From Bacilli bacterium (GTDB taxonomy: Bacteria > Bacillota_I > Bacilli_A > RF39 > UBA660): DNA of 61,864 nucleotides. The DNA is taken from NCBI GenBank assembly GCA_028693035.1, contig JAQUWE010000001.1:116379-178242 (forward strand), read 5' to 3'. The position numbers and the translations under genes were made by a program. Positions 28,931 to 61,733 of this stretch are shown in pieces. The notes under the pieces were generated by a model that had not been told where the DNA came from, did no database searches, and was given only the letters and a program-made list of their open reading frames with translations. Positions within the stretch are counted from its first letter, which is position 1; each line of letters begins with the position of its first letter.

Positions 28931-28989
28931 AAAAAATAGAAATGATTACCTATAAAGATATTAGAAAAGTAAAGGAGTCTTTGATCAAA

Positions 28990-40774: not shown

Positions 40775-40816
40775 GGAAATAATAAAGAATCAGAACCATG
40801 GTAAAGGGTGAAGGAT

Positions 40817-43800
40817 ATGCGCAGTAAGCAATTCAAACATAACTTTGTATATAGCGCAATAGGACTTTTTCTGTTCCTAGTCCTTTTATTGCCCTTTTTT
40901 TCTGTTGCCAAAGCAGCAGAGAATGTAACAGCAGATAGTATTATGCAATGGGTATCTTCTACCAAACTTCCAGATGGCAATTACAATGTAACCGTAACGG
41001 GTGTAGGAACAGGTGGAACTGAAAAAACAGTCACTTATCCAATCGAACTTATTAACTATTATGATGATGTGACATATGGTGCTTCTATAAATCTTGGAGA
41101 TACTTCTACAGAATATAAAATGCTTGTTGTAAAATATTGGAAAAACGTAACAATAAACTCTGGTGTGACAGTCTCTGCCAACAAAAATGGTAATTATACA
41201 TACAAAAAGGGAATGTATCTACACGTATCAGGAACGCTTACTAACTATGGCAGAATCAGTATGAGTGCTAGGGGTACTTACAACCTTGCAGGTGAAGATG
41301 TCTTCTTGTGGAAAAATATAAGTGGGATACATGATTTTATTCCTGCCAAAGGAGCTGCCGGCGGAACAGCCGTATCTGTAGGTGGATCGCTTACACGTAA
41401 TAATGGACGAGTGGGTACAGCTGGAACAAATAGACAAACAGGTGGGGGTGCCTCTGGTGGGTCAACACCACTTAGTGGAACAACAACTTCTGGAGCCGGT
41501 GGAGCAGGAACATCTTACTCTGGGGGTTCTGGAGGAGGAGGCGCTTATAACGCTAGGGTAGCAGGTGCTGGTTCTTCTGTTGGAGGTCCTGGTGGAAATG
41601 GAAACTGCGGTACGACCTATACAACGGGTTGTGGTGGAGGTGCTGGAAACCCAGGTGGAGCCGGAGCAGGAACTTATTTTGGCGCAGGTGCTTTAGGAAA
41701 CGGTGGACTTTTAGTAGTATACGCTACAGAATATAACAATCTTGGAACAGTGGATGCAAATGGTTCTAAAGGTGGAGATGGATATCGTGCGGGAGCAGGT
41801 GGCTCTGGAGGCGGATCTATCAATATCTATTCTTCTTCCTTTACCGCAAAAGGAACTGCTACTGCTACGGGCGGTTCTTATGGAGTTGGTACCAGAGGTG
41901 GTAGTGAGAGATCAGATGGTGCAATTGGTGGGGTAGGAAGTATTACGTATACAACCTTAGTGCTCGATCCTGAATTCTTAGATCCTACATTGTCTTCTTT
42001 AAAAGTAGATAAAGGAACTATGCAACCTTCCACATTTGATTCTGCAATAAAAAAATATGTAGTAGGTCTTGATTCTGAGGACTATAAAGTGAATATATCT
42101 GCAACAGTTACCAATGAAGAGAATCTGATTACAAGTGGGGTAGGAGAATTTGAAATCCCATCGGGTTCTTCTATACATAATGTTGTGGTAACATCTGCCA
42201 TTGGTGTTGTTAAAGTCTATGAAATTGAATTTTATAGACAACCTTCTAGCTATGAATATTTAGATGATATTTTAATAGATGATAAAGAAATTGAAAATTT
42301 TAAAAAAGATAAATATGAATATACGGTATCTCTTCCCTATGACAAAGAAGAAATTGATTTAGGTGTTAAAAAGGGGAGAACTTCTCAACAAGTAGATGGA
42401 CTTGGTATAGTGAAAGTCCCATCTGGTACAAGTACAAAAAAAATAGAAGTAATTTCAGAAGATGGTAGTTCTACCAAAACTTATACCATTCATTTTGAAA
42501 GGGAACATAGTTCTAATTTGAAAAGTATCCAAGCAGAAGACTACGAGTTAAAGCCAGAATTTGCGAGTGATATTTATGAATATGCTTTAGAAATTCCTGC
42601 CAATGCTCTTTCTGTCAATGTAGAAGCTCTTGCTTATGATTCAAATGCTGTTGTAAAAGTAACAGGAAACGGATATATCAAAGGTGGAAGTGGAACGATT
42701 ACCATTACAGTAACCGAACCACATTCTTCTACTAAGACTTATAAAATTTACGTAACCAAAGAAGGTTCTATGGAAGAACAGACTTTTCGTTATGAATGTA
42801 CTAATAAAATGCAAACATTTGAAGCACCCGTTTCTTCTAACTATAAATTTCAGTTATGGGGCGCTCGTGGAGGATATGGAAGAACCCATTATGTTTTAAA
42901 ATATCGTGGAGGATATGGGGCTTATACAGAAGGTGAAATCTACTTAAAAAAAGGAGAAAAAATATACCTTTACGTAGGATGTGCAGGACAAAATTCTGCA
43001 ACTGCTAGTAGATACACTGGTGGATATGGTGGTTTTAATGGAGGCGCTAAGGGAGGAGACGATTCCAATCGTGATGGAGATCCAGAACCTGGTGGAGGTG
43101 GCGGAGGCGCTACAGACCTTCGTTTAGAACCTACAACTTCTGTAGATACATGGAATGAATTTGATAGTTTAAAATCAAGAATTATGGTGGCTGCTGGCGG
43201 CGGAGGAGGAAACTTCAGTGGAATCGGTGGAGCCGGTGGTAAATTAACAGGAGACATGGGTCATGGAAATAAACAACTTCCAACCCAAACAAGTGGGTAT
43301 GCTTTTGGGTATGGTATGGTCGGAGGTGCTTGTACGGATGGTGCTGGCGGTGGTGGCGGAGGCTACTACGGTGGGTACACAGGAAACGGATGTAATTATG
43401 GTGGAGGTGGTGGTTCTTCTTACATCTCAGGCTATGATGGAAGCATTGCTGTTTTAGAAAATTCTGTACTTGGTTCTATTAAAAGTTCTACCGACAGTAT
43501 TCACTATTCTAAATATGCCTTTGAAAATAGCAATATGATTGCTGGTACAGAGTCAATGCCTAATATAAATGGTGGATTCATGGTAGGAAATAATGGAAAC
43601 GGCGTAGCTTTGGTTACGGTAGGAGCCAGTCGTTCTACCAATAATTTCTTAAGTTCTATTACGGTAGATAAAGGAACCTTAAGCCCTGCCTTTAATATGG
43701 AAACTTCTACCTATGATGTGACACTGACAGATACAGATACAAGTATTACACTTGGTGCAAAACCAGAGGAGGATACAGCGACCATAACAGGACTTGGAAA

Positions 43801-46800
43801 AGTAAAAGTCCCATCTGGTACGACTTCTTATCCAATTGTGGTAACTGCAGAAGACGGAAGTATTAGAACATATACGGTAAGAGTGACAAGACCCGCTTCT
43901 TCTCTTGCTTTCCCAAATACCATTCGTATTTCTGGACTTGTCCCTTCACTATGTTCTGTCAACGCTTCTTATTGTAAATTAGATCAAGAATTTTCTCCTA
44001 GTACGCATACCTATCATATGAGTGTGCCAAGCAGAATCAAACAATTACAGTTTACGGTAAACAAGGCACATGATTATCAACAAACAACAGGAGATGGTGT
44101 TGTTAGTTTAAGTGGCGGTATGAATATTATTACCATCGAAGTCATGTCAGAAGATGGAAAAAATATAGAACCTTATACGTATTACATTGATAGAGATATG
44201 ACTGGAAACGCTTCTATAGAAAATTTAGAAGTTGTAAATCCTCCAGTAAACATCAATTTTGTAAGTGATATTACAGAGTATTATTTCTCTGTATCAAACG
44301 AATATAACAGTTTAGATTTAAAAGTAGAACTAGAAGATGAAGAAGCTACTTATATTGTAAAAGGCAATGAAAATTTTGAAACAGGAATGAATCTTGTTGA
44401 AATAGAAGTCACTGCTAGAAATGGCGAAAAAAATATATATACTTTAAATGTATATAAGGAACAAAGTGGAAATACCTATTTAAAAGAGTTAGAAGTAAAA
44501 GACGGTACCGAAACGTATCCTATGCTTCCTACTTTTAATAAATTTATGACAGAATATACGGTAACCGTACCAAGCTCTGTAGAAAATGTAGAACTAAAAG
44601 CGCAAGCAGAGCACCCTTTAACAGTCCTTACCGGTCTTGGAACCAAAACCCTTGTGACAGGTGTGAATGCCCAAACTGTTACAGCAACTTCTGAAGATGG
44701 GTCTGTAAGCATTTACCATATTTCTATTATTAGGGAAAAATCTAAAGATGCGACTTTGCAAAGTTTAGATATATTGGAAGGTACTTTAACTCCAACCTTT
44801 ACAAAAGAAGGGGAATCATATCAAGTAGAAGTAAGTCCAGAGATATCTTCACTTCATATAAATGCTGTCACAAATCATCCAAAAGCTTCTTATAAAATAA
44901 AAGGAAATAGTTCTTTTAAAGCAGGGGCTAATAAAGTAGAAATTGTTGTAACAGCTGAAAATGGCAATCAAAAGACATATACCCTTACTGTAAATAAACA
45001 AATTTCTGATAATAATTATTTAAGTGATTTGAATACAGATATTTATGATATGACTGGTCTTTTCCAAAAAGAAACAGAGACTTATAATTTTACAGTAGAG
45101 AGTGATGTTTCTAAAATCAAAGTAAATGCTGTTAAAGAAAGTGCTTTCGCTTCTTTGAAAGGAACAGGAAGTTACCAACTTAAAAAAGGCGATAATACGA
45201 TAGAAGTATCTGTAATTGCAGAAGATGGCAATGTAAGAGTATATACATTACATGTATTTAGAAAATATAGCAGCAATGCAAATCTCTTTACGATTTTATC
45301 TGATACAGAAAATGCTTTAGAACCTCTTTTCCAAAAAGAGATTACCGAATACCAAATGCATGTGGATAATGCAATTAAAAATATTACACTAACAGGAATT
45401 GCAGAAGAAGCTTCTGCGACAGTAAGTGGAAATGGGACATATAGTCTTCATACTGGAGAAAATGTTGTGACAATAAAAACAACCTCGGAAGATGGTACCG
45501 AAAAGGCTTATAAAATTACAATTGTGAGAGATCTTTCCTCTAACACAAATCTTTCTTCCATTACTGCTAAAGAAGGATCTCTTTCTCCTAAATTTAATAA
45601 AGAAGTAACTTCTTACCAGGTAAAGGTGTTAGAAAATGTTACCTCTTTAGATCTTACTGTTCTTAAAGAAGACGATACATCTACTTATGAAATTATCGGA
45701 AACAAAGATTTTATTTTAGGCGAAAATTTGGTAATAATCAAAGTAACAGCGCAAGACGGAACAAGTAAACAATATACACTTAAAGTCATAAGACAAGAAA
45801 GTGGAACCACATCAAATGCCCTTCTTTCTTTAATAACATCAAAAGGAACGCTTTCTCCAAAATTTAATAAAGACACTTTATTTTATACTGTAGAGGTTCC
45901 TTACGAAGCAGATAAAATTACAGTGGATGGAGTGGCAGAAGATATTGGAGCTACCATAACTGGACTAGGTGAAGCAGCCCTTGCTGTAGGAGATACTTTA
46001 CTTCCTATAACAGTAACATCAACAGAAGGAATTGAAAGAACTTATCAAATTCTTGTAAAAAGAAGTGAAAACAATGAAGCAAGACTTTCTAATATTACGG
46101 TTTCTTCTTCTGCGCTTACACCAAACTTTCAAAAGGATGTATATAGTTATTCTTTAAAAAGTTATCAAACAAAACTAGCATTGGATATTGTAACAGTAGA
46201 TCCTTCTGCTACCTATGAAATTATAGGAAATGAAAATCTACAATTGGGTGAAAACCTTGTAACCATCAAAGTCACAGCCAAAGATAAGAAAACAACAAAA
46301 GTATATTCTTTATATGTAACAAGAGAAAAATCAAATAATAACAATTTAGAATCGCTTAGTACTGGAGAAATAGAATTTACTCCTACCTTTTCTAAAACCA
46401 CTACTATTTATTCTGCAACTGTTGCTAGAAATGTAAATAACATTCAAATTGAAGCCAAGGCAGAAGATCCTTTAGCATCTGTTGAAGGAATAGGCAGTAC
46501 CGATTTAGAAGTAGGAATGAATTATAAACAGATTACAGTCACTAGTGAAAGTGGAAAAGTAAAAGTATATACACTTGCGATTACAAGAACACCAAGTGAT
46601 GTAAATACCTTAAAAAATCTTACTATAAGTGAAGGTAGTTTGTCTCCTGTTTTTGAAAGTACACAGAAAAAATACACAGTAGAAGTTCCTTATGAAATTG
46701 ATAAACTTTCAATTATGGGGGAAGCTTTAGATGACACCGCTACTATAACAGGTCTTGGAACACAAGATTTAAAAGTAGGCAAAAATATTTTTCCTATTAC

Positions 46801-49800
46801 CGTTACAAGTGAAAAAGGAACATCTACCATTTATGAAATAGAAGTTACAAGAAAAGAAATTGTTTCTTCTAAGTTAAAAACATTATCTATCAAAAACTAT
46901 ACTTTAACACCTACATTTTCTTCAGATGTTACGGATTATGTCGCAATGATAGATTATGAGGTTACTTCTTTAGATCTTCATTTAGAAACGCTGGATACAA
47001 AAGCCACTTATAAAATTATAGGAAATGAAAATTTTAAAGTAGGAATGAATGAAGTCAAAATCGAAGTAACAGATAGCCAAAGTCTTACTACAACAATTTA
47101 TACTTTAAATATAAATAGACAAAATTATAGCAATACCTTCTTAAGGTATATCGCACTCAGTGAAGGAACCCTTGTTCCAAACTTTGAGAAAACCACATTA
47201 TCTTATAGTGCAAATTTACCTAACGATATTGATGAAATCAGTCTTGAAGCAGAAGCAGAGGCAACTGGTGTTACTGTAAAAGGAACAGGTACTTATGCAT
47301 TAAAAACAGGTAAAAATGATTTCAATATTACTGTAGAAACTGCATCAGGTATTAAAAGAACCTATATGTTGTTTATCAATAGAGATTACAAAAATGATAA
47401 TTATTTAGAAACATTAGAAGCAAAAATAGGAAATACAAAAGTAAATATGACACCTGTTTTTGATAAAAACACACAGGAATATACATTAGAAGTACCAGAA
47501 GGAACAGATCGTCTCCAATTTGTAGGTACGGTATCAGAAGGTGCTAAAGTAGAAGGTCTTGGTACTGTTAGTGTCAAGGCTGGTGAAAACAAATATACCG
47601 TTCTGGTTACAAGTGAATCAGGAAATGTAAAAACATATACGGTAAATGTTACTAGAAAAGCTTCAAACAATGCCTTTTTAGCAGGTATAGAACCAAGTAC
47701 AGGAAATTTGCTTCCAGACTTTTCTTACTATGAAACAGAATACTCTATCTCTTTAGATTCTGCTACTTCTCTTTTATCTTTTGCGGTTGCAACAGATAAT
47801 CAATATGCAAAAGTAACCGGCATAGAAGAAGGGCTTGTACCAGACGGGCAAAGTACTAGAACCATTACTGTCACAGCCGAAGATGGAAGTATGAAAATGT
47901 ATACCATTCATATTTACAAAGATCGAAGTGATGAAGCAAGACTTTCTAAATTAGAAATGAAAGATTACGCTTTAGAAGAAACTTTTGATCCAGATACTTT
48001 CTCTTATCATGTAACGGTTCCAAATGATAAAAAAGTATTGTTAGCAAGTGAAATTACAGCAGAAACAGTAGATAAAAATGCGACTGTTATAAAACCAAGC
48101 TCTCTTACTTTGTCTGCAGCAAACACCAATGTTTATACTGTTTTAGTTACAGCAAAAGATGGGTTTACAACGCAGGCATACCATATCTATATTACAAGAG
48201 AAAAAGGGAGTGAAGCGCTTCTTTCAAAATTAGAATTTGCTAATGGTATTTTAACACCTAATTTCAATTCTAAAATTACGGATTATACATTAACAGTAAC
48301 GGGTCAAGTCAGTGAAATTTTAGGAAAAGATGTCATTGCGCAGGCTATAGATGATTCTGCAACTGTTATCAAAACCGAAAAGTTAGTCCTAAATAAAGAG
48401 GATAATCTTTATACAGTTAGGGTGATAAGTGGCGATACCAAAACAGAGTTGACTTATAACATACATGTCGTGTATTTAGAATCAAAAGATGCAACTTTGA
48501 AATCATTAGAAATTTCTAAAGGCACTCTCACACCAGCCTTTGCATCTTCCACTTATGGCTATTCTGTAAGCGTACTAGATGATACGGAATCTATTGATAT
48601 TACAGGCGTGGTTAATGATCCTAATGCTACTATTATAAGTGGAACTGGGACACATGCATTAACAGAAGAAACCACTCATGTTGATGTTGTTGTGCAAGCA
48701 GAAGATGGAACTCTTGCAATTTATAAAATAGAGGTAAAGAAAAATATTACCAAAGCAAAGCTTTTGGAAAATATATCTTTATCTGGAGATTGTACACAAG
48801 AAGTATGTCCATTAAGTCCTTCTTTTGAACCGGAAGTATTCTCTTATGAAACCAGTGTTCCTTATGAAGTAGAGAATATTAATATAGATGTAGAAAAGAA
48901 AAATCAAAATCAAATTGTGAAATTCTATAACCAAAAGACAGGATTTGAAATAACAAATACAAACTATGCACTTGAACTTGGTAAAAACAAAATACGAGTG
49001 GATGTAACAAATGGTATAGGAGAAACCACTTCTTATACCGTAAATATTACAAGAAGACTTTCTTCTAATAATAACTTAACAGATTTAAAGATTACCAATG
49101 TAGAAACAGACTTATCTTTCGATAAAGATACTTTAGAATATTTTGTAACAATACCAAATGAATATGATAAAGTTGTTATTGAAACAGTCAAAGAAGCAAG
49201 TACAGCTAAGGTATCTGTAAATGGTGCTACCAATTTAACAGATGGAAATAATGATGTCTTTGTGACTGTAACTGCGCAAAATGGTTCTGTTAAACAATAC
49301 ATCATTCATGTGTTTAAAGAGAGTGCTACCAACTATTACTTACAGTCTTTAACGGTAAGTTCCGGGATTATATATCCACCAACACCTACCTTCTATAAAG
49401 GAACATTTGATTATGTCATTACCGTTCCAAACGAAGTAAAGAGAATCACTTTAGATGCGGTTCCTGAGAAACTAAGTACAACGGTTGTTGGAACAGGGGA
49501 AAAGGAACTCATTACGGGGGTCAATACATTTACCCTTACAACCACTTCTGAAGGTGGAGAAAGTGCCAATTACAATGTCATTGTCAATCGTTTAAAATCT
49601 ACTAAACTATTATTAAAAACATTGTCTGCACAAGAAGGTCCATTTACAGAAACATTTGATCCGGAAACATTCTCTTATACAATGGATGTGGATGGAACAG
49701 TAGACCAACTTCACCTAAATGCAGTTCCAAAAGATGCCGGTGTTACTTATAAAATCACAGGTAACAATTCCTTGATTACAGGTAAAAATACTGTTTTGAT

Positions 49801-52800: not shown

Positions 52801-53461
52801 TTTAGTAATGCGTAAAAATGAAGAATTAGAATTGGATGTAAAATATTTACCAGTGGATGCAACCAATACAGAATTAGGCTATGAAAGTAGTGATGAAGAC
52901 GTTGTAACCATAGAAAATGGGGTTCTTACCTCTCATGAAATTGGTTCGTCAACGATTACCATTTATAGTAAACAAAATCCTTCTGTTAAGAAAATTATAA
53001 CAGTCAATGTACTAAATTTAACACTAAGTAGTTCTATTTACGAAGTAAGAAGAGATCCAGAAATATCCATTGTAATAGGACCTGATGAAGGAGAATCCTT
53101 AAGTGCATTTGTATCAAAATTAGATAACATGCAATCCATTATCAAGTTCTATGATATAGAAGGAAATCCTATTACAGATATCGAAAATACAAATTGTGCA
53201 ACCGGACAAAAAGTAGCGATTGAATATGGTAAAAAAACCTATGATGAAGCTTACATTGTTGTTCGTGGGGACTTAAATGGAGATAGTAATATCAACGTTA
53301 CAGATTATAATACTATTGTTGAGCAAATCCTAGGAAAAAGAGAACTTAAAAACTATGAATTTTCTTCTGGAGACCTTATAGAAGATGCTATTATCAATGT
53401 ATCAGATTCTGTAAAATTAAGAAATTATATCCTAGGAAAAGTAGAATCACTAAATCGTTAA
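40817..53461 (+). CDS. Giant secreted protein: Gly-rich domains, about 37 cadherin-like modules, Big2, dockerin (4214 aa)
   Basis: Signal peptide about 1-32 (cleavage after AKA). Domain order: an N-terminal region with a glycine-rich stretch (about 178-330); three cadherin-like beta-sandwich modules (about 388-650); a second Gly-rich domain resembling the glycine-rich domain of ALK/LTK receptors (about 653-875, with FQLWGARGGYG and GGGGGG runs); 34 more modules of about 85 residues (941-3986); a Big2 domain (about 3987-4070); a pre-dockerin module; and a dockerin (about 4151-4210). The dockerin shows GDLNGDSNINVTD and a second, weaker DLIEDAIINVSD loop. No enzyme domain and no LPxTG. ATG 40817 is six bases after AAAGGGTG; a GTG at 40808 lies in that site. 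The dockerin suggests docking on a cohesin such as those of the next two genes. Function as a fibre or adhesin is inference. Confidence 0.9.
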   Translation: MRSKQFKHNFVYSAIGLFLFLVLLLPFFSVAKAAENVTADSIMQWVSSTKLPDGNYNVTVTGVGTGGTEKTVTYPIELINYYDDVTYGASINLGDTSTEYKMLVVKYWKNVTINSGVTVSANKNGNYTYKKGMYLHVSGTLTNYGRISMSARGTYNLAGEDVFLWKNISGIHDFIPAKGAAGGTAVSVGGSLTRNNGRVGTAGTNRQTGGGASGGSTPLSGTTTSGAGGAGTSYSGGSGGGGAYNARVAGAGSSVGGPGGNGNCGTTYTTGCGGGAGNPGGAGAGTYFGAGALGNGGLLVVYATEYNNLGTVDANGSKGGDGYRAGAGGSGGGSINIYSSSFTAKGTATATGGSYGVGTRGGSERSDGAIGGVGSITYTTLVLDPEFLDPTLSSLKVDKGTMQPSTFDSAIKKYVVGLDSEDYKVNISATVTNEENLITSGVGEFEIPSGSSIHNVVVTSAIGVVKVYEIEFYRQPSSYEYLDDILIDDKEIENFKKDKYEYTVSLPYDKEEIDLGVKKGRTSQQVDGLGIVKVPSGTSTKKIEVISEDGSSTKTYTIHFEREHSSNLKSIQAEDYELKPEFASDIYEYALEIPANALSVNVEALAYDSNAVVKVTGNGYIKGGSGTITITVTEPHSSTKTYKIYVTKEGSMEEQTFRYECTNKMQTFEAPVSSNYKFQLWGARGGYGRTHYVLKYRGGYGAYTEGEIYLKKGEKIYLYVGCAGQNSATASRYTGGYGGFNGGAKGGDDSNRDGDPEPGGGGGGATDLRLEPTTSVDTWNEFDSLKSRIMVAAGGGGGNFSGIGGAGGKLTGDMGHGNKQLPTQTSGYAFGYGMVGGACTDGAGGGGGGYYGGYTGNGCNYGGGGGSSYISGYDGSIAVLENSVLGSIKSSTDSIHYSKYAFENSNMIAGTESMPNINGGFMVGNNGNGVALVTVGASRSTNNFLSSITVDKGTLSPAFNMETSTYDVTLTDTDTSITLGAKPEEDTATITGLGKVKVPSGTTSYPIVVTAEDGSIRTYTVRVTRPASSLAFPNTIRISGLVPSLCSVNASYCKLDQEFSPSTHTYHMSVPSRIKQLQFTVNKAHDYQQTTGDGVVSLSGGMNIITIEVMSEDGKNIEPYTYYIDRDMTGNASIENLEVVNPPVNINFVSDITEYYFSVSNEYNSLDLKVELEDEEATYIVKGNENFETGMNLVEIEVTARNGEKNIYTLNVYKEQSGNTYLKELEVKDGTETYPMLPTFNKFMTEYTVTVPSSVENVELKAQAEHPLTVLTGLGTKTLVTGVNAQTVTATSEDGSVSIYHISIIREKSKDATLQSLDILEGTLTPTFTKEGESYQVEVSPEISSLHINAVTNHPKASYKIKGNSSFKAGANKVEIVVTAENGNQKTYTLTVNKQISDNNYLSDLNTDIYDMTGLFQKETETYNFTVESDVSKIKVNAVKESAFASLKGTGSYQLKKGDNTIEVSVIAEDGNVRVYTLHVFRKYSSNANLFTILSDTENALEPLFQKEITEYQMHVDNAIKNITLTGIAEEASATVSGNGTYSLHTGENVVTIKTTSEDGTEKAYKITIVRDLSSNTNLSSITAKEGSLSPKFNKEVTSYQVKVLENVTSLDLTVLKEDDTSTYEIIGNKDFILGENLVIIKVTAQDGTSKQYTLKVIRQESGTTSNALLSLITSKGTLSPKFNKDTLFYTVEVPYEADKITVDGVAEDIGATITGLGEAALAVGDTLLPITVTSTEGIERTYQILVKRSENNEARLSNITVSSSALTPNFQKDVYSYSLKSYQTKLALDIVTVDPSATYEIIGNENLQLGENLVTIKVTAKDKKTTKVYSLYVTREKSNNNNLESLSTGEIEFTPTFSKTTTIYSATVARNVNNIQIEAKAEDPLASVEGIGSTDLEVGMNYKQITVTSESGKVKVYTLAITRTPSDVNTLKNLTISEGSLSPVFESTQKKYTVEVPYEIDKLSIMGEALDDTATITGLGTQDLKVGKNIFPITVTSEKGTSTIYEIEVTRKEIVSSKLKTLSIKNYTLTPTFSSDVTDYVAMIDYEVTSLDLHLETLDTKATYKIIGNENFKVGMNEVKIEVTDSQSLTTTIYTLNINRQNYSNTFLRYIALSEGTLVPNFEKTTLSYSANLPNDIDEISLEAEAEATGVTVKGTGTYALKTGKNDFNITVETASGIKRTYMLFINRDYKNDNYLETLEAKIGNTKVNMTPVFDKNTQEYTLEVPEGTDRLQFVGTVSEGAKVEGLGTVSVKAGENKYTVLVTSESGNVKTYTVNVTRKASNNAFLAGIEPSTGNLLPDFSYYETEYSISLDSATSLLSFAVATDNQYAKVTGIEEGLVPDGQSTRTITVTAEDGSMKMYTIHIYKDRSDEARLSKLEMKDYALEETFDPDTFSYHVTVPNDKKVLLASEITAETVDKNATVIKPSSLTLSAANTNVYTVLVTAKDGFTTQAYHIYITREKGSEALLSKLEFANGILTPNFNSKITDYTLTVTGQVSEILGKDVIAQAIDDSATVIKTEKLVLNKEDNLYTVRVISGDTKTELTYNIHVVYLESKDATLKSLEISKGTLTPAFASSTYGYSVSVLDDTESIDITGVVNDPNATIISGTGTHALTEETTHVDVVVQAEDGTLAIYKIEVKKNITKAKLLENISLSGDCTQEVCPLSPSFEPEVFSYETSVPYEVENINIDVEKKNQNQIVKFYNQKTGFEITNTNYALELGKNKIRVDVTNGIGETTSYTVNITRRLSSNNNLTDLKITNVETDLSFDKDTLEYFVTIPNEYDKVVIETVKEASTAKVSVNGATNLTDGNNDVFVTVTAQNGSVKQYIIHVFKESATNYYLQSLTVSSGIIYPPTPTFYKGTFDYVITVPNEVKRITLDAVPEKLSTTVVGTGEKELITGVNTFTLTTTSEGGESANYNVIVNRLKSTKLLLKTLSAQEGPFTETFDPETFSYTMDVDGTVDQLHLNAVPKDAGVTYKITGNNSLITGKNTVLITLTNADKTVTSTYKINVNKQKSTNNYLSSLKLDNKELLGSDPDKTVYTETVASNVDSITLTGKTAVPSAYANGFGTYSLAYGENKITISVKAEDGSTRSYEVTIKREYDLSLSMLTVDRGEITPAFDPNVTEYSLEVSKDIADATVLAVPSGTGVKVMGNGFHKLKMGENNIPITVMAEDGISKTYTLHIERKESHNNYLKDLYIHEGYLKEEFDKENLLYTAEVPDTVKKLTMDVTPEDPSATYEIIGNENLKNGENEVTVIVTAEDGTKRTYTVQVLVQDASLFSNRLVNLTVSKGNLSPNFNPDTLSYTVSVPNNVTSITINGVLESVDAKVTGLGTYTLVQGRNSFPIVLTSKDKKTRTYSVIVYRIPSSDARLKSIAFKEGSLSPVFDKDKESYVIHVGNTVSRLTEKIEPFVEGTTYEVIGNENLQTGTTLIKVIATANDGYSKKTYTITVDKQISNNNYLSSLTSNIGVITPAFDKNETGPYTIEAGENVNSIVLSGVPESENAKVTGLGLHTLHKGINNIPITVTSEAGVIRTYIVLVNQALSSDNSLSFLATSDGSLSPSFNKDTLSYTIDVDSDVTEMTILGISSHANATINGNGNYKLEPGQNEIKMTVTAENGSVRVYTVTVNRKAEASSKILDMRALEGLLTPTFEKNTVEYTMNVPNEVTALHLNVTLEDANATYEIINNQNFKVGTNQVLVRVTATDGLQTTYKINVIRQTASNNYLKSLTTDRGQLAPSFDRLEQYYEIEVESNVSEIKISGVPEAGSATVDGNGAHSLNKGENYIPIKVTSNSGIERIYTIKVTRKSSSDSLLSNLTISTGTLSPAFAPSTKEYTVDLPVGTSTLTLGATANENASIEGLGTKTVKTGNNTYEIVVTAEDGSISIYKITANKVSASNTNIVSLTPSKGTLEPFYNNSTDGYEVLVPEDASLLSFAVALEDENATVKGNEERALQYGENLIEIVVTAEDGTEKTVHIRVIRPKNITDIETEEDTLVMRKNEELELDVKYLPVDATNTELGYESSDEDVVTIENGVLTSHEIGSSTITIYSKQNPSVKKIITVNVLNLTLSSSIYEVRRDPEISIVIGPDEGESLSAFVSKLDNMQSIIKFYDIEGNPITDIENTNCATGQKVAIEYGKKTYDEAYIVVRGDLNGDSNINVTDYNTIVEQILGKRELKNYEFSSGDLIEDAIINVSDSVKLRNYILGKVESLNR
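41350..41810 (+). repeat. First glycine-rich segment of the giant protein
   Basis: About 150 residues dominated by Gly, Ala, Ser and Thr with many GGxGG units and two cysteines (GNCGTTYTTGCGG). It follows a region with short beta-helix-like phrases (SGTLTNYGRISMS). GC content rises sharply here relative to the flanks because of GGN codons. Confidence 0.8.
42773..43440 (+). other. ALK/LTK-like glycine-rich domain within the giant protein
   Basis: Opens with a beta-strand phrase ending FQLWGARGGYG, then alternating strands and poly-Gly runs, with YVGCAGQN, GGGGGGATDLR and MVAAGGGGG phrases. These match the plan of the Pfam Gly_rich (ALK/LTK) domain, where Gly runs pack as polyglycine helices on a beta frame. 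It interrupts the array of cadherin-like modules after the third one. Confidence 0.7.
43636..52773 (+). repeat. 34 tandem cadherin-like modules (about 85 codons each)
   Basis: Each unit follows the plan: LxxLxVxxGxLxPxF, then YxVxVP, a middle strand with ATVxGxG or ATYxIxGNxN, LxxGxN, IxVTAEDGxxxxYxIxVxR, and a linker such as SSNN. The modules are too diverged at the DNA level to align by eye as identical units. Only two contain cysteines. Confidence 0.88.
53268..53450 (+). other. Dockerin of the giant protein
   Basis: Two calcium-loop helices. The first, DLNGDSNINVTD, has Asp/Asn at positions 1, 3, 5, 9 and 12, as in type I dockerins. The second, DLIEDAIINVSD, has Ile at position 3 and Ala at 6, so calcium binding there may be weaker. 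Each loop is followed by a helix ending in ILGK. Confidence 0.82.
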
Positions 53462-53467
53462 TATCAA

Positions 53468-53501
53468 AAGAATATGTTATTTTAGACATGTTCTTTTTTT
53501 T
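53468..53501 (+). terminator. Terminator after the giant protein gene
   Basis: AAGAATATGT (53468-53477) pairs with ACATGTTCTT (53486-53495) with one G-T pair, loop TATTTTAG, then a T-run. Confidence 0.85.
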
Positions 53502-53598
53502 AAATACTTTTTCTAGTAAAAATGCACTTAAAATATAGCTTGCTTCGACAATTTATGATAAAATTAGACTATAGAATAAGTAAGTATAGGAGTCACGT

Positions 53599-56500
53599 AT
53601 GAAAAAGAAAAAAAATAATATAAAAAAACATTTATATTTTGCTATTTTTTGTGTTTTTTTAATGAGTCCTTTTCATGTTTTAGCAGCCACTCATGATTTT
53701 AGTTTAAGTGCTTATGACTTTGATCCCACTGCTAACGATTGGGAAGGATCTGGTACAGAAGATGAAATTGCAAATGGGGGATATGTAGAACCTGGACAAG
53801 TCATTCGGGTAAACATTAACTATAAAGTGGGAGCATCTCCTGTTTTGGGCTTACAAGCAGGAGTCAATTATGATTCTTCCGTTTTTGAAGTCATCGAAGA
53901 CGGTGGAGAAATTTATATGGAAACGGATACCAGTACCACTTATTATGGAGGTATCTGGCCTGCTGCAGGAACATCTGCTGCCAATAAGAAAAAAACCAAT
54001 TGGGTTATTTCTGGAAACAATTATGCCAATAAACAAGTTAGGGTTTTTGCCTCTGATTCACAGGTTAAAGATCCATTAGAAACAGATGGTGTGATTGCGA
54101 CTTTTTACTTAAGAGTAAAAGATACAGTACCAGCAGGAACTATCCTAAACTTAACTTATGACAATGCGTATACTGTTACTGATGGAGACTTACCAAAAAC
54201 AACACAAAATCTTTCTTTAACTGTTTTTGGAACAATGAATAATGATGTGAGTTTATCTTCTTTAAGCCTCGTTGGAAGTAATAGTAAAAATTATCTTTTA
54301 AATCCTGCCTTTGTAGCAGGTACTTCTACAAGGACCTTTTCTACAGTGGTTCCTTACCAAGTAAGTTCTATGAGTCTTGCTGCTACACCAATCGATCCTC
54401 TTGCAACTATTTTACAAGGTGGACTTGGTTCAAAATCATTAGCCGTAGGAGATAATTCTTTTAATATTGTTGTCCAAGCACAAAATGGTACACAAGAGAT
54501 TTATCAAATCAATATAAAAAGACTTTCTAACGATGCTTCTTTAAAAACATTAAGTCTTACAAATGCTTCTTTTGATTATGACTTTTCTAGTTCAATTTAT
54601 ACCTATACAGCAACTGTTCCTTATGCAACAAAAGATACAAGTATAACAGCTACTGTCAATCAAAAAGATGCTACTATAAAAAGTGGTACAGGGGCATGGG
54701 CTTTAAATAATTATGGAGCCACTGTTAATAACAAGAGTGTTGTAGTAGAAGCAGAAGACTGTAAAAGTGAATATGCTTCTGTTATAGACAATGCTTGTAC
54801 AAGCAAAACTTATTCGGTTGGTGTTACTAGAATCGCACCTTCTTCTGACAATGCCCTTACAGGTATAAAAGTGGACGGAGTGAGTGTGGAAAACTTTATC
54901 AGTAGTACCCTTATCTATACGCTTCCGAATGTATCCAATGCGACAAGTAGTCTCAATGTAACCGCTTCTTTAGCAGATACAAAAGCAACCATTACTGGAA
55001 CGGGTACCAAAGCCTTACAAGTAGGGGACAATACGATTTCTCTTGTAGTAACAGCTGAAGATGGAACAAAAAGAACTTACCAAATTCATGTAAGAAGACT
55101 TTCAAATAATGGAAAATTAGCTTCTCTTACAGTAAATTCATCACCAGTAGGTACTTTGTCTCCAAATTTCAATTCTACTTTTTATGATTATTATACCTAT
55201 ACCTACGATTCTACCGTTTCGTCTATTCAGATAAGTGCTACTTTAGAAGATACGAATGCAACCATCGTAAGTGGGTTAGGAGAATATAGTACAGGAGATA
55301 CCAGTGCAAACATTGTTACGATGGCAGAAGATGGTACCCTTAGTACTTATGCCATTCATTTCACGAGAAATAAATCAACCAATGGAAATTTATCCTCTTT
55401 ATCAATAGATGGATATTCTCTAAAAGAAACATTCTCTTCTAATAAAACATTATATACAGCAGAAGTGCCAGGAACCATTTCAACCATTCATGTCAATGCA
55501 GAGGCAGAAGATGCCCATGCAACCATTGTAAGTGGCGCTGGTGATCATGCTTTGGAATATGGTCAAAATACCATTCAAATTCGTGTAAAAGCAGAAAATG
55601 GATCTGTAAAAGATTATACGTTAGTGGTAACTAGAAATAAGAAAAAAATATCTGCTTTATCTAATTTAACTGTCAATAATCAAACTGTAACAGGTTTTAA
55701 AGAAGATATACTTACTTATGATTATGGAACCATTCCTTTTGCAGAAACTAGTGCAGAAATTGGATATCAAACAAAAGATAGCGATGCGACTGTAACAGGG
55801 GCTGGAACCATTTCTTTAAAAACAGGAATGAATGAAATTCCTTTAGTTGTAACCGCACAAGATGGTGTAACCAAAACAACGTATACTGTAAAAATATATA
55901 GAACCCTATCAAACAATGCTTATTTAAAAGAATTGTCAGATGCTTCAGTAGCAATTGATTTCGACAAAACCATAAATAGTTATACAGTAAGTGTTCCTTA
56001 TGAAACCAATAAAATGAATTTAAAAGCAGTAACAGAATATAAAGATGCTACAGTAGCGATAACAGGACCTTCTACTTTATCAGTGGGAGAAAACACGTAT
56101 ACAATTACAGTCACTGCAGAAGATGGAACCCTTAATGTTTATACAGTAAAAGCCACAAGAAATGCTTCTAAAAATAATAACTTAAGTGCTATTACTGTTA
56201 AAAATGGAAGTACTTCTTATTTAAATGGATTTCAAAAAGACAAAGTTTCTTATGATATAACCGTTCCAAACGAAGTAACATCTATAGATATTGGTGCTAC
56301 TTTAGAAGATAGTACAAATGCAACAGTTACAGGAATTGGAAGCAAGAATCTAAGTACAGGAAATAATACCTTCGTTTTAGAAGTAACAGCTGCTAGTGGA
56401 GAAAAGAAAACGTATACTTTAAATATCACAAGAGCACTGAATAGTAATAATACCCTTTCTTCATTAGAAGTAGTAGATCACGCAATGACTCCTACATTTT

Positions 56501-59500
56501 CTAAAGAGGTAACCAGTTATACAACTACAGTAGAAAGTGACGTTTCAGAAGTACGAATAAATGCAGCCGCTTCTGTTGGAACAAGTACCGTAACAGGAAC
56601 GGGTCTTCATACATTACAAACAGGAACCAATGTATTTAATATTGTAGTAACAGCCGAAGACAATAGCAAAAAAACATATGTAGTAGTTGTGATAAGAAAA
56701 GCATCAAATGATAGTACACTAAGTATGTTAAATGTCGATGGTGGTATTTTAAATGAAGCCTTTTCACCAAGTAAACATAGCTATACAGTCAATGTAGCAA
56801 ACAGTACTCAAAAAGTAACCTTAAGTGGTACAGCTACAGATGCTAGAGCAAAAAGCGTAACAGGACTTGGAGAAATCACATTACAAACAGGTAAGAATAC
56901 AGCGCAAATAGTGGTAACAGCCGAAGACAATACTTCTACAACTTATACCGTTGTAATTGACCGTGCTAAAAATATGAATGCCAATTTAAGCAATTTGGCT
57001 TTATCAGGTGGTTATACATTTGATCAAACCTTTAGCCCTTCCACCACTTCTTATACTGCAACCGTACCGAATAACGTTTCACAGATATTGGTTTCAGCAA
57101 CCAAAGAAGCCGCTACCTCAAGTGTTACAGGAACAGGCAATATTTCTTTACAAACAGGATATAATGACATCAATGTTGTGGTAACAGCGGAAGATACCAT
57201 GATTAAAAAAACTTATAAAATCAGAATCTTTAGAGCTTTATCCAATAATGCATATCTAAAAGAGTTGAGTTCTACAAATGGACTTATCACACCTGCTTTT
57301 GATAAAACAAAATCTGATTATACTTTAACCGTTCCATATGAAGTAACAGATGCCAATGTAAAAGCAGTGGTAGAAGATACAGGTGCAACTGTAAGTATAG
57401 AAGGCAATGAAAACTTAAAAGTAGGCGTGAATACAGTTTCTATCATTGTAACTGCAGAAGATGGTACATTAAATACCTATAAAGTAGATATTACAAGGCA
57501 ACCATCTAGTAACAATTACTTATCTTCCTTATCTGTAAAAGATCCAAATAAAACAGAACTTATTACTGTATTTAATAAAACCATTATGACATACCAAATC
57601 AAGGTAGATAATAGTATTTCTTCTATTGATATTGCTGCTTTAGCAGAAGATAGCGAAACCACAGTAAAAGGAACTGGACAAAAACAATTACAGGTAGGAA
57701 GCAATACTTTCAAAATAGAATCTATTAGTGCAGATGGAACTGTGCGTGAGTACATTGTAACCATCACAAGAGCACAAAATGAAAATGCTGATTTAAAAGA
57801 ACTTTCTATTGAAGGATATACACTGATTCCAGACTTTTCTGCAAATACTGTTTCTTACTCTTTAAATGTTGATAGTAGTGTAAAAGAACTTACAATAAAA
57901 GCTTCAGCAAAAGAAGATACCAGTACAATAAAAGGACTTGGAAAAGTACAAATCCAAAGAGGCCTTAATACATTTAATGTAGAAGTAACGGCAGAAAGCG
58001 GCAAGACAAAAACATATGTCATTGTTGTAAACAAAGCAGCTTCTAGTAACAATTACTTAGCTTCTCTTTTGGCAAGTGAACCTTTCACACCTACATTTGA
58101 TAGAGAAAAAACACAGTACAATATGACTGTATCAAACGCAACTAAAAAAGTAACATTGGAAGCCGCACTAGAAGATCCAAATGCAAGTGTCGTAGGCAGT
58201 GGAGAACATGACTTGGTTGTAGGAAATAATACTATAACAATCACAGTTACGGCAGAAGACAATACATTTAGAACCTATACAGTTACCGTTTATAGAGAAC
58301 CTTCTCAAAATAATTATTTAAGTGATTTAAAAATAGAAGGACAAACGATACAAGATTTTGATAGAGAAACATTAGAGTATAACTTAGAAGTGGGCAACGA
58401 AGTTACCCAAATGCAGATTTCTGGAATTTTAGAAGATACGACAGCTACCATTACAGGAAACGGTATTATTTATTTACAAACAGGAACCAATATACAAAAT
58501 ATTGTGGTAACGGCAGAAAATGGAACGACTAGGGTATATAAAATCAATATCAAAAGAGCCTTATCTTCTAATAACAATTTAAGTTTATTAAAAGCAGCAG
58601 AAGGCACTTTAAATATTCCATTTGATCCATCTGTTTTAAATTATAAAATGGATGTTCCTTATGAAACCACTAAGCTTACACTCACAACCGTTGTAGCAGA
58701 AGCAAATGCTGTTGTAGAAATAGAAGGAAATGTGGATTTTCAAATAGGATCTAATAACCATGTATACATCAATGTAACCGCAGAAGATGGTACAACAAAA
58801 TCCTATACGATTGAAGTGACACGCTTGCCACAAGCCAATAACTTTTTAACAAGTTTGTCACTAAAAGATGATCAAAATAAAACCTATACATTTGATATAC
58901 CATTTCAAAAAAATACACTTAGCTATAAGGTAGAAGTAGATGCTGGAACTACCAATTTGATTGTGGCAGGTACCAAAGAAGCTACAAGTAGTACAGTAGT
59001 AGGTCTTGGCAATATTACAGTAACAAACTATCCTTATACACATAATGTTGTAGTGACTTCCGCAAGTGGCGTAAAAAGAACGTATAGTATAGTAATAAGT
59101 CAAAAGAAATCTAGCAACGCTAATTTACAGTCGATTACTTTGAATAAAGGTAGTTTATCTCCAGCCTTTGATAAAGATGTTATGAACTATTCACTTAAGG
59201 TAGCCTCTAATATTGCAGATATTGATATCAAAGCTTTAGGATATGCAGGGCAAACCATCATTGGTGATGGTGTTCATACTTTAAATTATGGAAACAATAA
59301 AATTACTATTACCGTAACCGCAGAAGATGGAACGACAAAAACATATACTATCAATGTTGAAAGAGAAAATAAAGTAGAAAGTTTTCTTGAAAATATTTTA
59401 GTAACAAATGGACAGTTATCTCCAACCTTTGATGCGACAATTACCGATTATACAGCGTATTTAAGTGAAGATGCTACTTCTATTACTATAACGCCTAAAA

Positions 59501-60093
59501 TTGCAAATCCAGATACACCTATTTATATAGCAAAAAATGATGGTAGTTATGAAATCGTAAATTCTGTTACTTTCACAGATTTAAGTGAAGACAATGTAGC
59601 TAAAATAAAAGTAGTAGGCACTGGGGAAACAACCATTTATACCGTTACCATTGCGCATCAAGACAAAGAAAAAATTACTTCAGAAGTATATGGACATACG
59701 ATTAAAGATGGTATGATTACAACTGTAAAAATAAATACAACCCTAGAAGAGATGAAAGCACAACTTGATAATGATGCCAAATACTTAAAGATTTATGAAA
59801 GTGATGGAACAACAGAATATAAAGGAAATGCTTTAGGAACGGGTATGATTGTTAAATTATTCAAAAATGAAGAAGTCATTGATCAAAAAGTAATTGTTAT
59901 TAAAGGAGACACCGATGGCAATGGAACCATCAATGCAATCGATGCTTTAAAAACCGTCAATCATATTATTGAGACCAGTCAACTTTCAGGAAGTTACCTC
60001 GTTGCAGCAGATACAACAAATGATGGAACAGTAGATGCAATTGATGCTTTAAAAATTGTAAATCATATTATTGGCACAGGGCCATTATATTAA
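53599..60093 (+). CDS. Secreted scaffold: cohesin-like domain, about 20 cadherin-like modules, dockerin (2164 aa)
   Basis: Signal peptide about 1-29 (after VLA). Residues about 33-210 form a cohesin-like domain: VEPGQVIRVNINYK, LQAGVNYDSSVFEV and GVIATFYLRVKDTVPAG are the three expected parts. About 20 cadherin-like modules follow (215-2020), then a pre-dockerin module (about 2026-2100) and a dockerin (2104-2164) with two good calcium loops, DTDGNGTINAID and DTTNDGTVDAID, each followed by a KxVNHII helix. One protein thus carries both halves of a cohesin-dockerin pair at opposite ends. No LPxTG, no enzyme domain. TAGGAG precedes ATG 53599; no clear promoter is visible in the 97 bases after the terminator. 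It is 14 bases from the next gene, so the two are probably one operon. Confidence 0.9.
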   Translation: MKKKKNNIKKHLYFAIFCVFLMSPFHVLAATHDFSLSAYDFDPTANDWEGSGTEDEIANGGYVEPGQVIRVNINYKVGASPVLGLQAGVNYDSSVFEVIEDGGEIYMETDTSTTYYGGIWPAAGTSAANKKKTNWVISGNNYANKQVRVFASDSQVKDPLETDGVIATFYLRVKDTVPAGTILNLTYDNAYTVTDGDLPKTTQNLSLTVFGTMNNDVSLSSLSLVGSNSKNYLLNPAFVAGTSTRTFSTVVPYQVSSMSLAATPIDPLATILQGGLGSKSLAVGDNSFNIVVQAQNGTQEIYQINIKRLSNDASLKTLSLTNASFDYDFSSSIYTYTATVPYATKDTSITATVNQKDATIKSGTGAWALNNYGATVNNKSVVVEAEDCKSEYASVIDNACTSKTYSVGVTRIAPSSDNALTGIKVDGVSVENFISSTLIYTLPNVSNATSSLNVTASLADTKATITGTGTKALQVGDNTISLVVTAEDGTKRTYQIHVRRLSNNGKLASLTVNSSPVGTLSPNFNSTFYDYYTYTYDSTVSSIQISATLEDTNATIVSGLGEYSTGDTSANIVTMAEDGTLSTYAIHFTRNKSTNGNLSSLSIDGYSLKETFSSNKTLYTAEVPGTISTIHVNAEAEDAHATIVSGAGDHALEYGQNTIQIRVKAENGSVKDYTLVVTRNKKKISALSNLTVNNQTVTGFKEDILTYDYGTIPFAETSAEIGYQTKDSDATVTGAGTISLKTGMNEIPLVVTAQDGVTKTTYTVKIYRTLSNNAYLKELSDASVAIDFDKTINSYTVSVPYETNKMNLKAVTEYKDATVAITGPSTLSVGENTYTITVTAEDGTLNVYTVKATRNASKNNNLSAITVKNGSTSYLNGFQKDKVSYDITVPNEVTSIDIGATLEDSTNATVTGIGSKNLSTGNNTFVLEVTAASGEKKTYTLNITRALNSNNTLSSLEVVDHAMTPTFSKEVTSYTTTVESDVSEVRINAAASVGTSTVTGTGLHTLQTGTNVFNIVVTAEDNSKKTYVVVVIRKASNDSTLSMLNVDGGILNEAFSPSKHSYTVNVANSTQKVTLSGTATDARAKSVTGLGEITLQTGKNTAQIVVTAEDNTSTTYTVVIDRAKNMNANLSNLALSGGYTFDQTFSPSTTSYTATVPNNVSQILVSATKEAATSSVTGTGNISLQTGYNDINVVVTAEDTMIKKTYKIRIFRALSNNAYLKELSSTNGLITPAFDKTKSDYTLTVPYEVTDANVKAVVEDTGATVSIEGNENLKVGVNTVSIIVTAEDGTLNTYKVDITRQPSSNNYLSSLSVKDPNKTELITVFNKTIMTYQIKVDNSISSIDIAALAEDSETTVKGTGQKQLQVGSNTFKIESISADGTVREYIVTITRAQNENADLKELSIEGYTLIPDFSANTVSYSLNVDSSVKELTIKASAKEDTSTIKGLGKVQIQRGLNTFNVEVTAESGKTKTYVIVVNKAASSNNYLASLLASEPFTPTFDREKTQYNMTVSNATKKVTLEAALEDPNASVVGSGEHDLVVGNNTITITVTAEDNTFRTYTVTVYREPSQNNYLSDLKIEGQTIQDFDRETLEYNLEVGNEVTQMQISGILEDTTATITGNGIIYLQTGTNIQNIVVTAENGTTRVYKINIKRALSSNNNLSLLKAAEGTLNIPFDPSVLNYKMDVPYETTKLTLTTVVAEANAVVEIEGNVDFQIGSNNHVYINVTAEDGTTKSYTIEVTRLPQANNFLTSLSLKDDQNKTYTFDIPFQKNTLSYKVEVDAGTTNLIVAGTKEATSSTVVGLGNITVTNYPYTHNVVVTSASGVKRTYSIVISQKKSSNANLQSITLNKGSLSPAFDKDVMNYSLKVASNIADIDIKALGYAGQTIIGDGVHTLNYGNNKITITVTAEDGTTKTYTINVERENKVESFLENILVTNGQLSPTFDATITDYTAYLSEDATSITITPKIANPDTPIYIAKNDGSYEIVNSVTFTDLSEDNVAKIKVVGTGETTIYTVTIAHQDKEKITSEVYGHTIKDGMITTVKINTTLEEMKAQLDNDAKYLKIYESDGTTEYKGNALGTGMIVKLFKNEEVIDQKVIVIKGDTDGNGTINAIDALKTVNHIIETSQLSGSYLVAADTTNDGTVDAIDALKIVNHIIGTGPLY
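54241..59673 (+). repeat. About 20 tandem cadherin-like modules of the scaffold protein
   Basis: Same consensus as in the giant protein. Modules 7, 12 and 17 share the phrases VPYExT and a GNxN- or GPST-type middle strand, and modules 7 and 12 begin alike (AYLKELS), pointing to duplication of a five-module block. Module 2 has an inserted loop with two cysteines (near 54760-54800). Confidence 0.85.
59908..60090 (+). other. Dockerin of the scaffold protein
   Basis: Two intact calcium loops (D-T-D-G-N-G-T-I-N-A-I-D and D-T-T-N-D-G-T-V-D-A-I-D) with near-identical following helices (ALKTVNHII, ALKIVNHII). Better preserved than the dockerin of the giant protein. Confidence 0.9.
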
Positions 60094-60107
60094 GAAGGGA
60101 GCCATTT

Positions 60108-61733
60108 ATGAAAAAAAATAGGATAATAAAAACCATTTGTTTCTTGATTACTCTTTTCTCTGTTTCTACTGTTCATGCAGGAAGTGTAGCATTACATCTA
60201 AACGGAGAATCAACAGTAAAGGTTGGACAAACATTTGATATTACGGTAGAAGCATCCTCAATTAACGGATTTAATGGAGGACTTGCGACTGTACAAGGAG
60301 ATATTTCATTTGACCAAAGTTATATTGAATATATGAAATATAGTGGAGCATCCTCTCCTTTAAGCGTAAGCTATGGGGTTTCCACAAAAAGGTTTGTAGC
60401 GCTTGGAATGAGTGGTGAATCTATTAAAAGTACAGGTTCTATTTTCACACTTACCTTTAAAGCACTTCATCCAGGAAAAACAAATGTTAGTATCAACAAT
60501 ATGGTAGTAGGGGATACCAAAGCCATTGTTCATACGGCAACGACTTCTCCAAAACAAATCACAATTGTAGAGGATACAACAATTATAACGCCAACACCCA
60601 CTCCAAAACCAAATACCAATACCAAACCAGTAAGTGGGGAAGTTAAACAAAAAAGTACAGTTAAATCTTCTGTGAAAACATTAGAATATTTAAGAGTCAA
60701 CAATGCAATTATGACACCAAGTTTTGATAAAACGATTACAGAATATACAATTATAGTAGAAAAAGATACCGATAAATTACTCCTTGACTATGCTGCTAGC
60801 AATAGTAATGCCAAAGTAAAAGTAATAGGTAACGAATCTTTAAAAACAGGTGAAATCAGTAAAGTTGAAATAGAAGTTACAGCCGAGGATGGAAGTACAC
60901 AAAAATATATTTTAAATGTTAAAAAAGAAGGACAACAGGAAAAAAGAGGTCTTTCTAAACTTACTGCTAAAGAAGGAAAATTATCTCCAAAATTTGATAC
61001 AGAAACCTTTGAATATACAATTGTCGTTGGCAAAAAAGTAAAAAAATTAACATTAGATATTGTTCCTGTAGATAAAGATAGTAAAATAGAGATTATTGGA
61101 AATAAAAACTTTGAATTTGGAAAAAATGATGTTTTGGTTAAAGTAACAGATAAAGATGGATTTATAAATTACTATACCCTACATGTAAAAAAACCAAATA
61201 CAATGACATTGTTTGGGATTCATATTGGTTATATAATAGGGGGCTTACTACTTTTCCTATTCCTACTATTCCTTTTATTTAAAAAGAAGAAAAAAGAAGA
61301 AAAAGTAGAAAAAATTATTGTAGAACCCATTACTTTAAGACCACAGATTACCATACCTGATGAAAATGATTTTGCAGAAAGAATTGCTAAAAAAATAGAA
61401 GAAAATAAATCAGTAGTGCCTAAGGCTGAAGAAAAGCCAATCATTGAGCCGATAAAAGAAGAAGAGTTGAAAACAGAAACCTTTTTACATCCTTTCTACG
61501 AAGAAAAGACAGAACCTGTAGAAAAGAAAAAAGAAGAGAATGATTATGTAGCGCGTCATACACAAGGTTTTATAGAAAAAAGCCAAGATGATTTATATGA
61601 TGATGTTGTCACAAAAGAAGAACTTATTGGTGCTATTGAAGAAGGCAATGCTAAAAAATTAAACATGTTAATGAAACAAGAAGAAGTAAATAAATTAAAA
61701 GAAGAATTAAAAAAAGAAGAAGGAAATGAGTAA
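60108..61733 (+). CDS. Membrane-anchored cohesin protein with two cadherin-like modules (541 aa)
   Basis: Signal peptide about 1-24 (after VHA). Residues 25-155 are a cohesin domain: GESTVKVGQTFDITVEAS, a VQGDISFDQSYIEYM strand, and GSIFTLTFKALHPGKTNVSI. A Pro/Thr linker (about 162-187, PTPTPKPN) leads to two cadherin-like modules (190-275, 280-362), one membrane helix (367-391) followed by a run of lysines, and a 150-residue acidic/basic cytoplasmic tail ending in a likely coiled coil. It is the only one of the three with a membrane anchor, so it fits the role of cell-surface receptor for dockerins. GAAGGGAG precedes ATG 60108, 14 bases after the upstream gene. The tail has no recognisable catalytic domain. 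Confidence 0.9.
   Translation: MKKNRIIKTICFLITLFSVSTVHAGSVALHLNGESTVKVGQTFDITVEASSINGFNGGLATVQGDISFDQSYIEYMKYSGASSPLSVSYGVSTKRFVALGMSGESIKSTGSIFTLTFKALHPGKTNVSINNMVVGDTKAIVHTATTSPKQITIVEDTTIITPTPTPKPNTNTKPVSGEVKQKSTVKSSVKTLEYLRVNNAIMTPSFDKTITEYTIIVEKDTDKLLLDYAASNSNAKVKVIGNESLKTGEISKVEIEVTAEDGSTQKYILNVKKEGQQEKRGLSKLTAKEGKLSPKFDTETFEYTIVVGKKVKKLTLDIVPVDKDSKIEIIGNKNFEFGKNDVLVKVTDKDGFINYYTLHVKKPNTMTLFGIHIGYIIGGLLLFLFLLFLLFKKKKKEEKVEKIIVEPITLRPQITIPDENDFAERIAKKIEENKSVVPKAEEKPIIEPIKEEELKTETFLHPFYEEKTEPVEKKKEENDYVARHTQGFIEKSQDDLYDDVVTKEELIGAIEEGNAKKLNMLMKQEEVNKLKEELKKEEGNE

Follow-up and report, generated by a model that had tools for sequence, protein, structure and literature searches.

Gene content of the locus

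We analyzed a stretch of 61,864 nucleotides (the window) from a Bacilli draft genome of the UBA660 lineage (assembly GCA_028693035.1, contig JAQUWE010000001.1), in which three consecutive genes encode cohesin and dockerin proteins that probably assemble into a surface fibre. The genes are co-directional open reading frames of 4217, 2164 and 541 residues (40808-53461, 53599-60093 and 60108-61733), called here giant, scaffold and anchor. The giant frame is open from a GTG at 40808, and the in-frame ATG at 40817 is the start used in the initial annotation and in Table 1. The window stops at the end of its contig (C7, 178 kb) and the three genes extend to this end. The draft genome amounts to 1.36 Mb and is estimated to be 93% complete and 6% contaminated.

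Modules of family PF12733 were counted with a local hidden Markov model (HMM) and are present in all three proteins (Table 1). The genome has 54 PF12733 matches: 53 lie within the three genes and the last one in a further cohesin-like protein, C23. The name "cadherin-like" given to these modules refers to a likeness of fold only. In the Pfam scan of the three proteins, eukaryotic cadherin repeats (PF00028) gave no match, and only the bacterial PF12733 was found. A hydropathy scan of the three proteins identified one N-terminal hydrophobic segment in each of them and a second one in the anchor only, in agreement with the membrane anchoring that had been proposed for this protein. The three-gene arrangement described in the initial annotation is likewise borne out by the reading frames, Pfam, the cohesin folds and the relatives. 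That description was incomplete, as it lacked the cytoplasmic tail of the anchor, the modules preceding the dockerins, the glycine-rich domain, and the wider role of cohesin-dockerin in the family as a tether for SH3b-dockerin proteins.

Table 1. Coordinates of the three genes and their domains in the window (aa, amino acid residues; pLDDT, predicted local distance difference test)
Feature	Position	Strand	Evidence
Giant: signal-peptide-like N terminus, glycine-rich domain, 37 PF12733, Big_2, pre-dockerin module, dockerin	40817..53461	+	Pfam, local HMM
Glycine-rich domain PF12810 of giant (aa 678-938)	42839..43621	+	Pfam E 2e-45
37 cadherin-like beta-sandwich modules of giant, interrupted by the glycine-rich domain	42014..52762	+	PF12733 E 2e-271; count by local HMM
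Giant dockerin (aa 4152-4211), second calcium loop degenerate	53261..53440	+	PF00404 26.6 bits on fragment; family dockerin HMM E 5e-14
Scaffold: signal-peptide-like N terminus, cohesin, 20 PF12733, pre-dockerin module, dockerin	53599..60093	+	Pfam, local HMM
Scaffold cohesin (aa 30-212)	53686..54234	+	PF00963 36.1 bits; model pLDDT 76; best PDB match E 1e-9
Scaffold dockerin (aa 2101-2160), two near-identical recognition helices	59899..60078	+	PF00404 44.6 bits
Anchor: signal-peptide-like N terminus, cohesin, 2 PF12733, transmembrane segment, cytoplasmic tail	60108..61733	+	Pfam, hydropathy
Anchor cohesin (aa 25-155)	60180..60572	+	PF00963 32.5 bits; pLDDT 95; best PDB match 2jh2; NagJ profile E 4e-10
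Anchor transmembrane segment (aa 365-394)	61200..61289	+	hydropathy 2.77
Conserved cytoplasmic tail motif of anchor, YDDVVTKEEL..AIEE...KKL.ML.KQEE.NK.KEE (aa 490-541)	61575..61730	+	tail profile, relatives

Identity of the binding modules

The two cohesins and the two dockerins were scanned as isolated fragments against Pfam, with cut-offs of 24.1 bits for PF00963 and 22.9 bits for PF00404, the type I dockerin with its two calcium-loop-helix repeats, and all four exceed them. Fragments were required: whole-protein Pfam and NCBIfam scans named neither cohesin, and the giant dockerin reached 19.6 bits in the whole-protein Pfam scan, under the cut-off. A six-frame search of the genome with PF00963 gave 35.1 bits for the scaffold and 32.5 bits for the anchor. 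Iterating a local cohesin profile made it drift into PF12733, and seed-only profiles were used in its place. Built with its relatives, the anchor cohesin profile finds solved cohesins, the best being that of Clostridium perfringens NagJ; the scaffold profile finds mostly cellulosomal cohesins, more weakly (E 4e-4).

Structural models point in the same direction. According to AlphaFold2 (mean pLDDT in Table 1), both N-terminal domains are predicted to fold as cohesins: cohesins or complexes containing them make up the whole list of 50 PDB matches for the scaffold model and the first 41 of those listed for the anchor. The initial annotation had named a non-cohesin fold of these two domains as the outcome that would contradict it, and this outcome did not occur. 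Its identification of all four modules is upheld by Pfam fragments and, for the two cohesins, by profiles reaching solved cohesins and by fold models. A chance origin of the domain calls is ruled out by their E-values and by their recurrence in other genera.

Absence of enzymes and sorting signals

Scanning the three proteins with Pfam brought up no catalytic domain, as had been noted from the letters of the sequence. The locus also departs from a cellulosome in its organization. Only two dockerins pass the cut-off in the genome, those of the giant and the scaffold, so that a search for other dockerin proteins brought none over this cut-off, and neither of the two carries a catalytic family such as the glycoside hydrolases that bear dockerins in cellulosomes. 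Instead of a scaffoldin with several cohesins and a carbohydrate-binding module, we found one cohesin per protein and, in Pfam, no carbohydrate-binding family.

Attachment by sortase was considered as well. No LPxTG-like motif is present in the giant, scaffold or anchor, and a Gram_pos_anchor match in the whole-protein Pfam scan scores 18.7 bits, under the cut-off of 20. The earlier suggestion of a fibre assembled "instead of by sortase" holds in so far as the three proteins lack sorting signals, but it is too strong: the genome has two sortase genes, and the cassette is therefore not a replacement for a missing sortase.

Recurrence of the cassette in relatives

A profile of the scaffold N terminus, run against 386 genomes of the family, identified about 15 scaffolds, distributed over ten genera or more; it found none in four other members of the window's own genus. 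The intact order giant-scaffold-anchor is present in five relatives (G079, G294, G164, G332 and G247; the giant dockerin of G164 scores weakly). G304 and G390 keep this order but have a giant truncated where the contig stops, in G271 and G177 one extra small gene lies between giant and scaffold, and in G360 the anchor is missing where the contig ends. The three-gene neighbourhood thus recurs with its gene order unchanged in divergent genera belonging to a single family, as the initial annotation had proposed to check. Across these relatives the scaffolds have 14 to 23 modules and the giants reach 7154 residues. Several copies of the cassette are followed by a further cohesin gene.

Some variations on this arrangement were observed. 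Genome G177 contains several giants (L169 and L170, on C17): 4929 and more than 3592 residues on one contig, and another adjoining the scaffold; they may be alternative outer fibres sharing one scaffold. In G332 (L129:7329-11346) the anchor and the next gene have almost identical cohesins, although the two proteins differ in their remaining parts; the pattern resembles a recent gene conversion or duplication. In two other cases (L153:2312-4156 and G420:C8) the anchor is followed by a protein of about 300 residues with a cohesin and a dockerin, then by a small dockerin protein; these proteins are possible adaptors extending the chain. A frame of 25,386 residues in G155:C19 (L200-L203) was rejected as an artefact read through masked N; its true end is a cassette scaffold, followed by two further genes.

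Dockerin specificities and cohesin groups

A tree was computed from the segments comprising the pre-dockerin module and the dockerin of 10 giants and 15 scaffolds. Giant and scaffold segments form two clades (support 99/98), between which the recognition helices are unrelated. In the scaffold dockerins the recognition helices of the two halves are 82% alike within one dockerin versus 35% between species, a value reached in none of 10000 permutations; for the giant dockerins the corresponding figures are 66% and 34% (4 of 10000 permutations). A matched change of this kind is what one would expect where the two halves have to fit a single cohesin partner. A dual binding mode is established for cellulosomal dockerins, and the duplicated recognition surface is found in the scaffold dockerins; in the window's giant the two halves are not alike. 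Giant and scaffold dockerins are 29% alike in the same genome and 28% across genomes and, since these values are nearly equal, they should not share a cohesin. These comparisons indicate that two separate dockerin specificities are maintained.

The cohesins are divided as well: 14 of the 15 scaffold cohesins form a clade apart from the anchor cohesins (support 96/93). The other group contains the anchors, the cohesins of two-gene units (see below) and C18, another protein of the window's genome. C18 (L004:1135-1893) is a short secreted cohesin protein with similar ones in G420, G099, G332 and L152. Proteins of this type have about 240-290 residues and several end in an amphipathic C-terminal helix. 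In the cohesin tree its cohesin clusters with those of the anchors from the window and the nearest relatives, and C18 is a possible competitor for the dockerin of the scaffold.

Two dockerin specificities and two cohesin groups allow two simple pairings, of which only the chain anchor-scaffold-giant ties all three proteins together. In the other, the scaffold dockerin would bind the scaffold cohesin, giving a head-to-tail polymer, and the giant would dock directly on the membrane cohesin. The scaffold does bear both kinds of binding module, cohesin and dockerin, on opposite ends, and the two specificities and two groups fit this swapped arrangement as well. Yet such a polymer would be tied to neither anchor nor giant, although the three genes travel together. 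Moreover, in the trees the cohesins of the anchors lie with those of the SH3b-dockerin pairs, and the dockerins of the giants seem to have been derived inside the cassette; by parsimony only, this fits a pairing of the giant dockerin with the scaffold cohesin. We regard the swapped pairing as improbable.

Cohesin-dockerin pairs in the wider family

Among 145 genomes of the family, dockerins were found in 109 and cohesins in 73 (E 0.001). The commonest unit, present in about 40 of them by our count, consists of a dockerin gene of about 600-750 residues directly before a cohesin gene of about 450-500 residues. One such pair was examined in full (L172:4272-8049): in the first protein the dockerin is preceded by SH3b domains and a cadherin-like module, and its partner is a cohesin-cadherin-like-membrane protein. 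The idea that the partners are glucosaminidases was dropped, as Pfam shows SH3, cadherin-like module and dockerin in this pair and no glucosaminidase family. The wider family seems to use cohesin-dockerin mainly to tether SH3b-dockerin proteins. This unit may have been elaborated into the three-gene cassette. Both have a dockerin gene adjacent to a gene for a cohesin-cadherin-like-membrane protein, with related cohesins. The unit differs in having two genes, a cargo of about 600-750 residues and no scaffold; its dockerins fall in a separate clade, and the tail motif of the cassette is absent from almost all genomes that contain it.

The abundance of these pairs raises another explanation, in which the anchor and related cohesins would mainly hold other proteins, for example cell-wall enzymes, the giant and scaffold being interchangeable passengers. 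The 40 or so genomes with a dockerin gene directly before a cohesin gene, and the SH3b domains of the one examined, speak for it. In the window's genome, the only dockerins over the Pfam cut-off are the two of the locus, and we consider this docking platform quite unlikely.

Further large proteins were observed besides. In the family, large membrane proteins (L041, L042, L044-L047, L049, L052, L054, L055, L061, L064 and L067; many with frames of 2400-3200 residues) combine a cohesin at the N terminus with central membrane segments, closely followed by dockerin-like loops, and with a long array of Ig-like repeats; with cohesin and dockerin in one membrane protein, they could self-associate. In the window itself, positions 28942-31320 encode a protein of 792 residues that combines surface Ig-like domains with a prepilin-type N-terminal methylation motif; pilin-like proteins are not usually so large. 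Immediately upstream of the three cassette genes lie core genes (a YchF-type GTPase and a nuclease-family gene).

The cytoplasmic tail of the anchor

Beyond its membrane segment the anchor has a lysine/glutamate-rich tail of about 145 residues, with one to three copies of a motif approximating YDDVVTKEEL..AIEE..PKKLKMLL.QEE.NK.KEE. A second motif, FKPEFNFGSKNGTDDD, is located just inside the membrane in many relatives and is absent from the window's anchor. Within the order, the tail profile has matches in 15 of 385 genomes, every one of which belongs to this family; in a phylum-wide sample of 392 it matches only the window's genome and one marginal case. Among the 145 family genomes it is found in 5, of which 4 also have the scaffold cohesin. 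From this distribution the conserved tail appears to be specific to the cassette. Because a conserved inner tail is needless for simple anchoring, it probably docks to an inner partner.

This tail also bears on what the fibre would do. A structural coat or sheath, that is a surface layer or cell-cell links with no specific ligand, would agree with the great size of these proteins and with their make-up of little else than repeated beta-sandwich modules, the glycine-rich domain being their only known binding domain. Against it, a passive coat would have no need of a conserved tail, and the cassette is present only sporadically, even within one genus; we see the coat as an unlikely alternative to an adhesive fibre. 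At the other extreme, the cassette could be a force-bearing transmembrane link, the fibre being coupled through the tail to an internal machine or cytoskeletal partner, by a logic comparable to that of the cadherin-catenin and integrin systems. This reading is speculative, and we give it little credence.

Proposed assembly

We propose, with reasonable though not strong confidence in the whole, that this operon specifies a surface fibre that is non-covalent, probably dependent on calcium, and free of known enzymes. The membrane cohesin of the anchor would bind the C-terminal dockerin of the scaffold, whose N-terminal cohesin would in turn bind the C-terminal dockerin of the giant. The glycine-rich N-terminal part of the giant would then extend outward as the likely contact end in adhesion, with the 59 beta-sandwich modules as spacers. 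At the base, the anchor would span the membrane, its conserved tail probably docking to a partner in the cytoplasm. The same chain had been put forward in the initial annotation; the two dockerin specificities and two cohesin groups favour it, and the individual pairings we infer from sequence comparison.

Several observations weigh against this assembly. The giant dockerin is the weakest of the four modules, and its degenerate calcium loop, the second, has no N or D at the usual position 3. In three relatives the giant-like gene and the scaffold are on different contigs: in G223 the giant on the separate contig has a dockerin, in G267 the giant-like gene is truncated by the contig end before any dockerin, and in G099 scaffold and anchor share a contig with the giant on another. 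Mirror-tree correlations do not single out the proposed pairs; with the background removed there is no signal for any pair (partial r -0.03 to -0.20). When the dockerins of SH3b proteins are added to the tree, the scaffold dockerins of G205, G223 and G267 are placed nearer the giants. Two further cohesin proteins of the genome, C18 and C23, could compete for partners. Finally, we know of no ligand for the glycine-rich domain.

Comparison with known systems

The nearest functional parallel is CttA-ScaE of Ruminococcus flavefaciens, a non-enzymatic cohesin-dockerin adhesion whose joint withstands 600-750 pN and whose cohesin is anchored by sortase (PMC4266597). In both systems a surface cohesin holds, or here would hold, a dockerin protein that links the cell to a target through N-terminal binding domains; the link is non-covalent and a module (the X-module in CttA) precedes the dockerin (PMC4266597). 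They differ in that sortase fixes the ScaE cohesin to the wall and the complex targets cellulose, working beside an enzyme-bearing cellulosome (PMC4266597), whereas the cassette has a transmembrane anchor with a conserved inner tail, a middle scaffold, and arms of thousands of residues. By profile and fold, the closest solved relatives of the anchor cohesin are the X82 cohesins of Clostridium perfringens (NagJ, 2jh2/2w1n; NanJ, 2vo8), which share a non-cellulosomal use of cohesin-dockerin. Such C. perfringens cohesins outside cellulosomes sit on glycoside hydrolases (PMC12997984), whereas neither partner here has a recognised enzyme. The tiered assembly of an anchor, an adaptor scaffold and an outer component also recalls the cellulosome, amylosome and mucinolysome (PMC12997984); the cassette, unlike these, has no recognised enzymes or carbohydrate-binding module, and one cohesin per protein in place of arrays. 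Prediction of cohesin-dockerin complexes is reported to identify known partners with an F1 of about 0.7-0.9 (PMC12997984).

No account of an enzyme-free three-part cassette that combines a transmembrane cohesin with a conserved inner tail was found in the open-licence literature, and some published accounts of these uncultured lineages make no mention of cohesin or dockerin. Non-enzymatic cohesin-dockerin adhesion already has a precedent; the enzyme-free three-part transmembrane cassette appears to be new within that literature. To our knowledge, cohesin-dockerin is the best-known plug-and-socket of bacteria and has been described almost only for enzyme complexes. If the proposed assembly is true, this joint also builds long surface fibres, held by a membrane rather than a wall anchor, and uncultured gut bacteria with genomes of about 1-1.5 Mb devote more than 20 kb to them. 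The conserved cytoplasmic tail leads to a testable prediction, namely that the fibre would be coupled to the cell interior.

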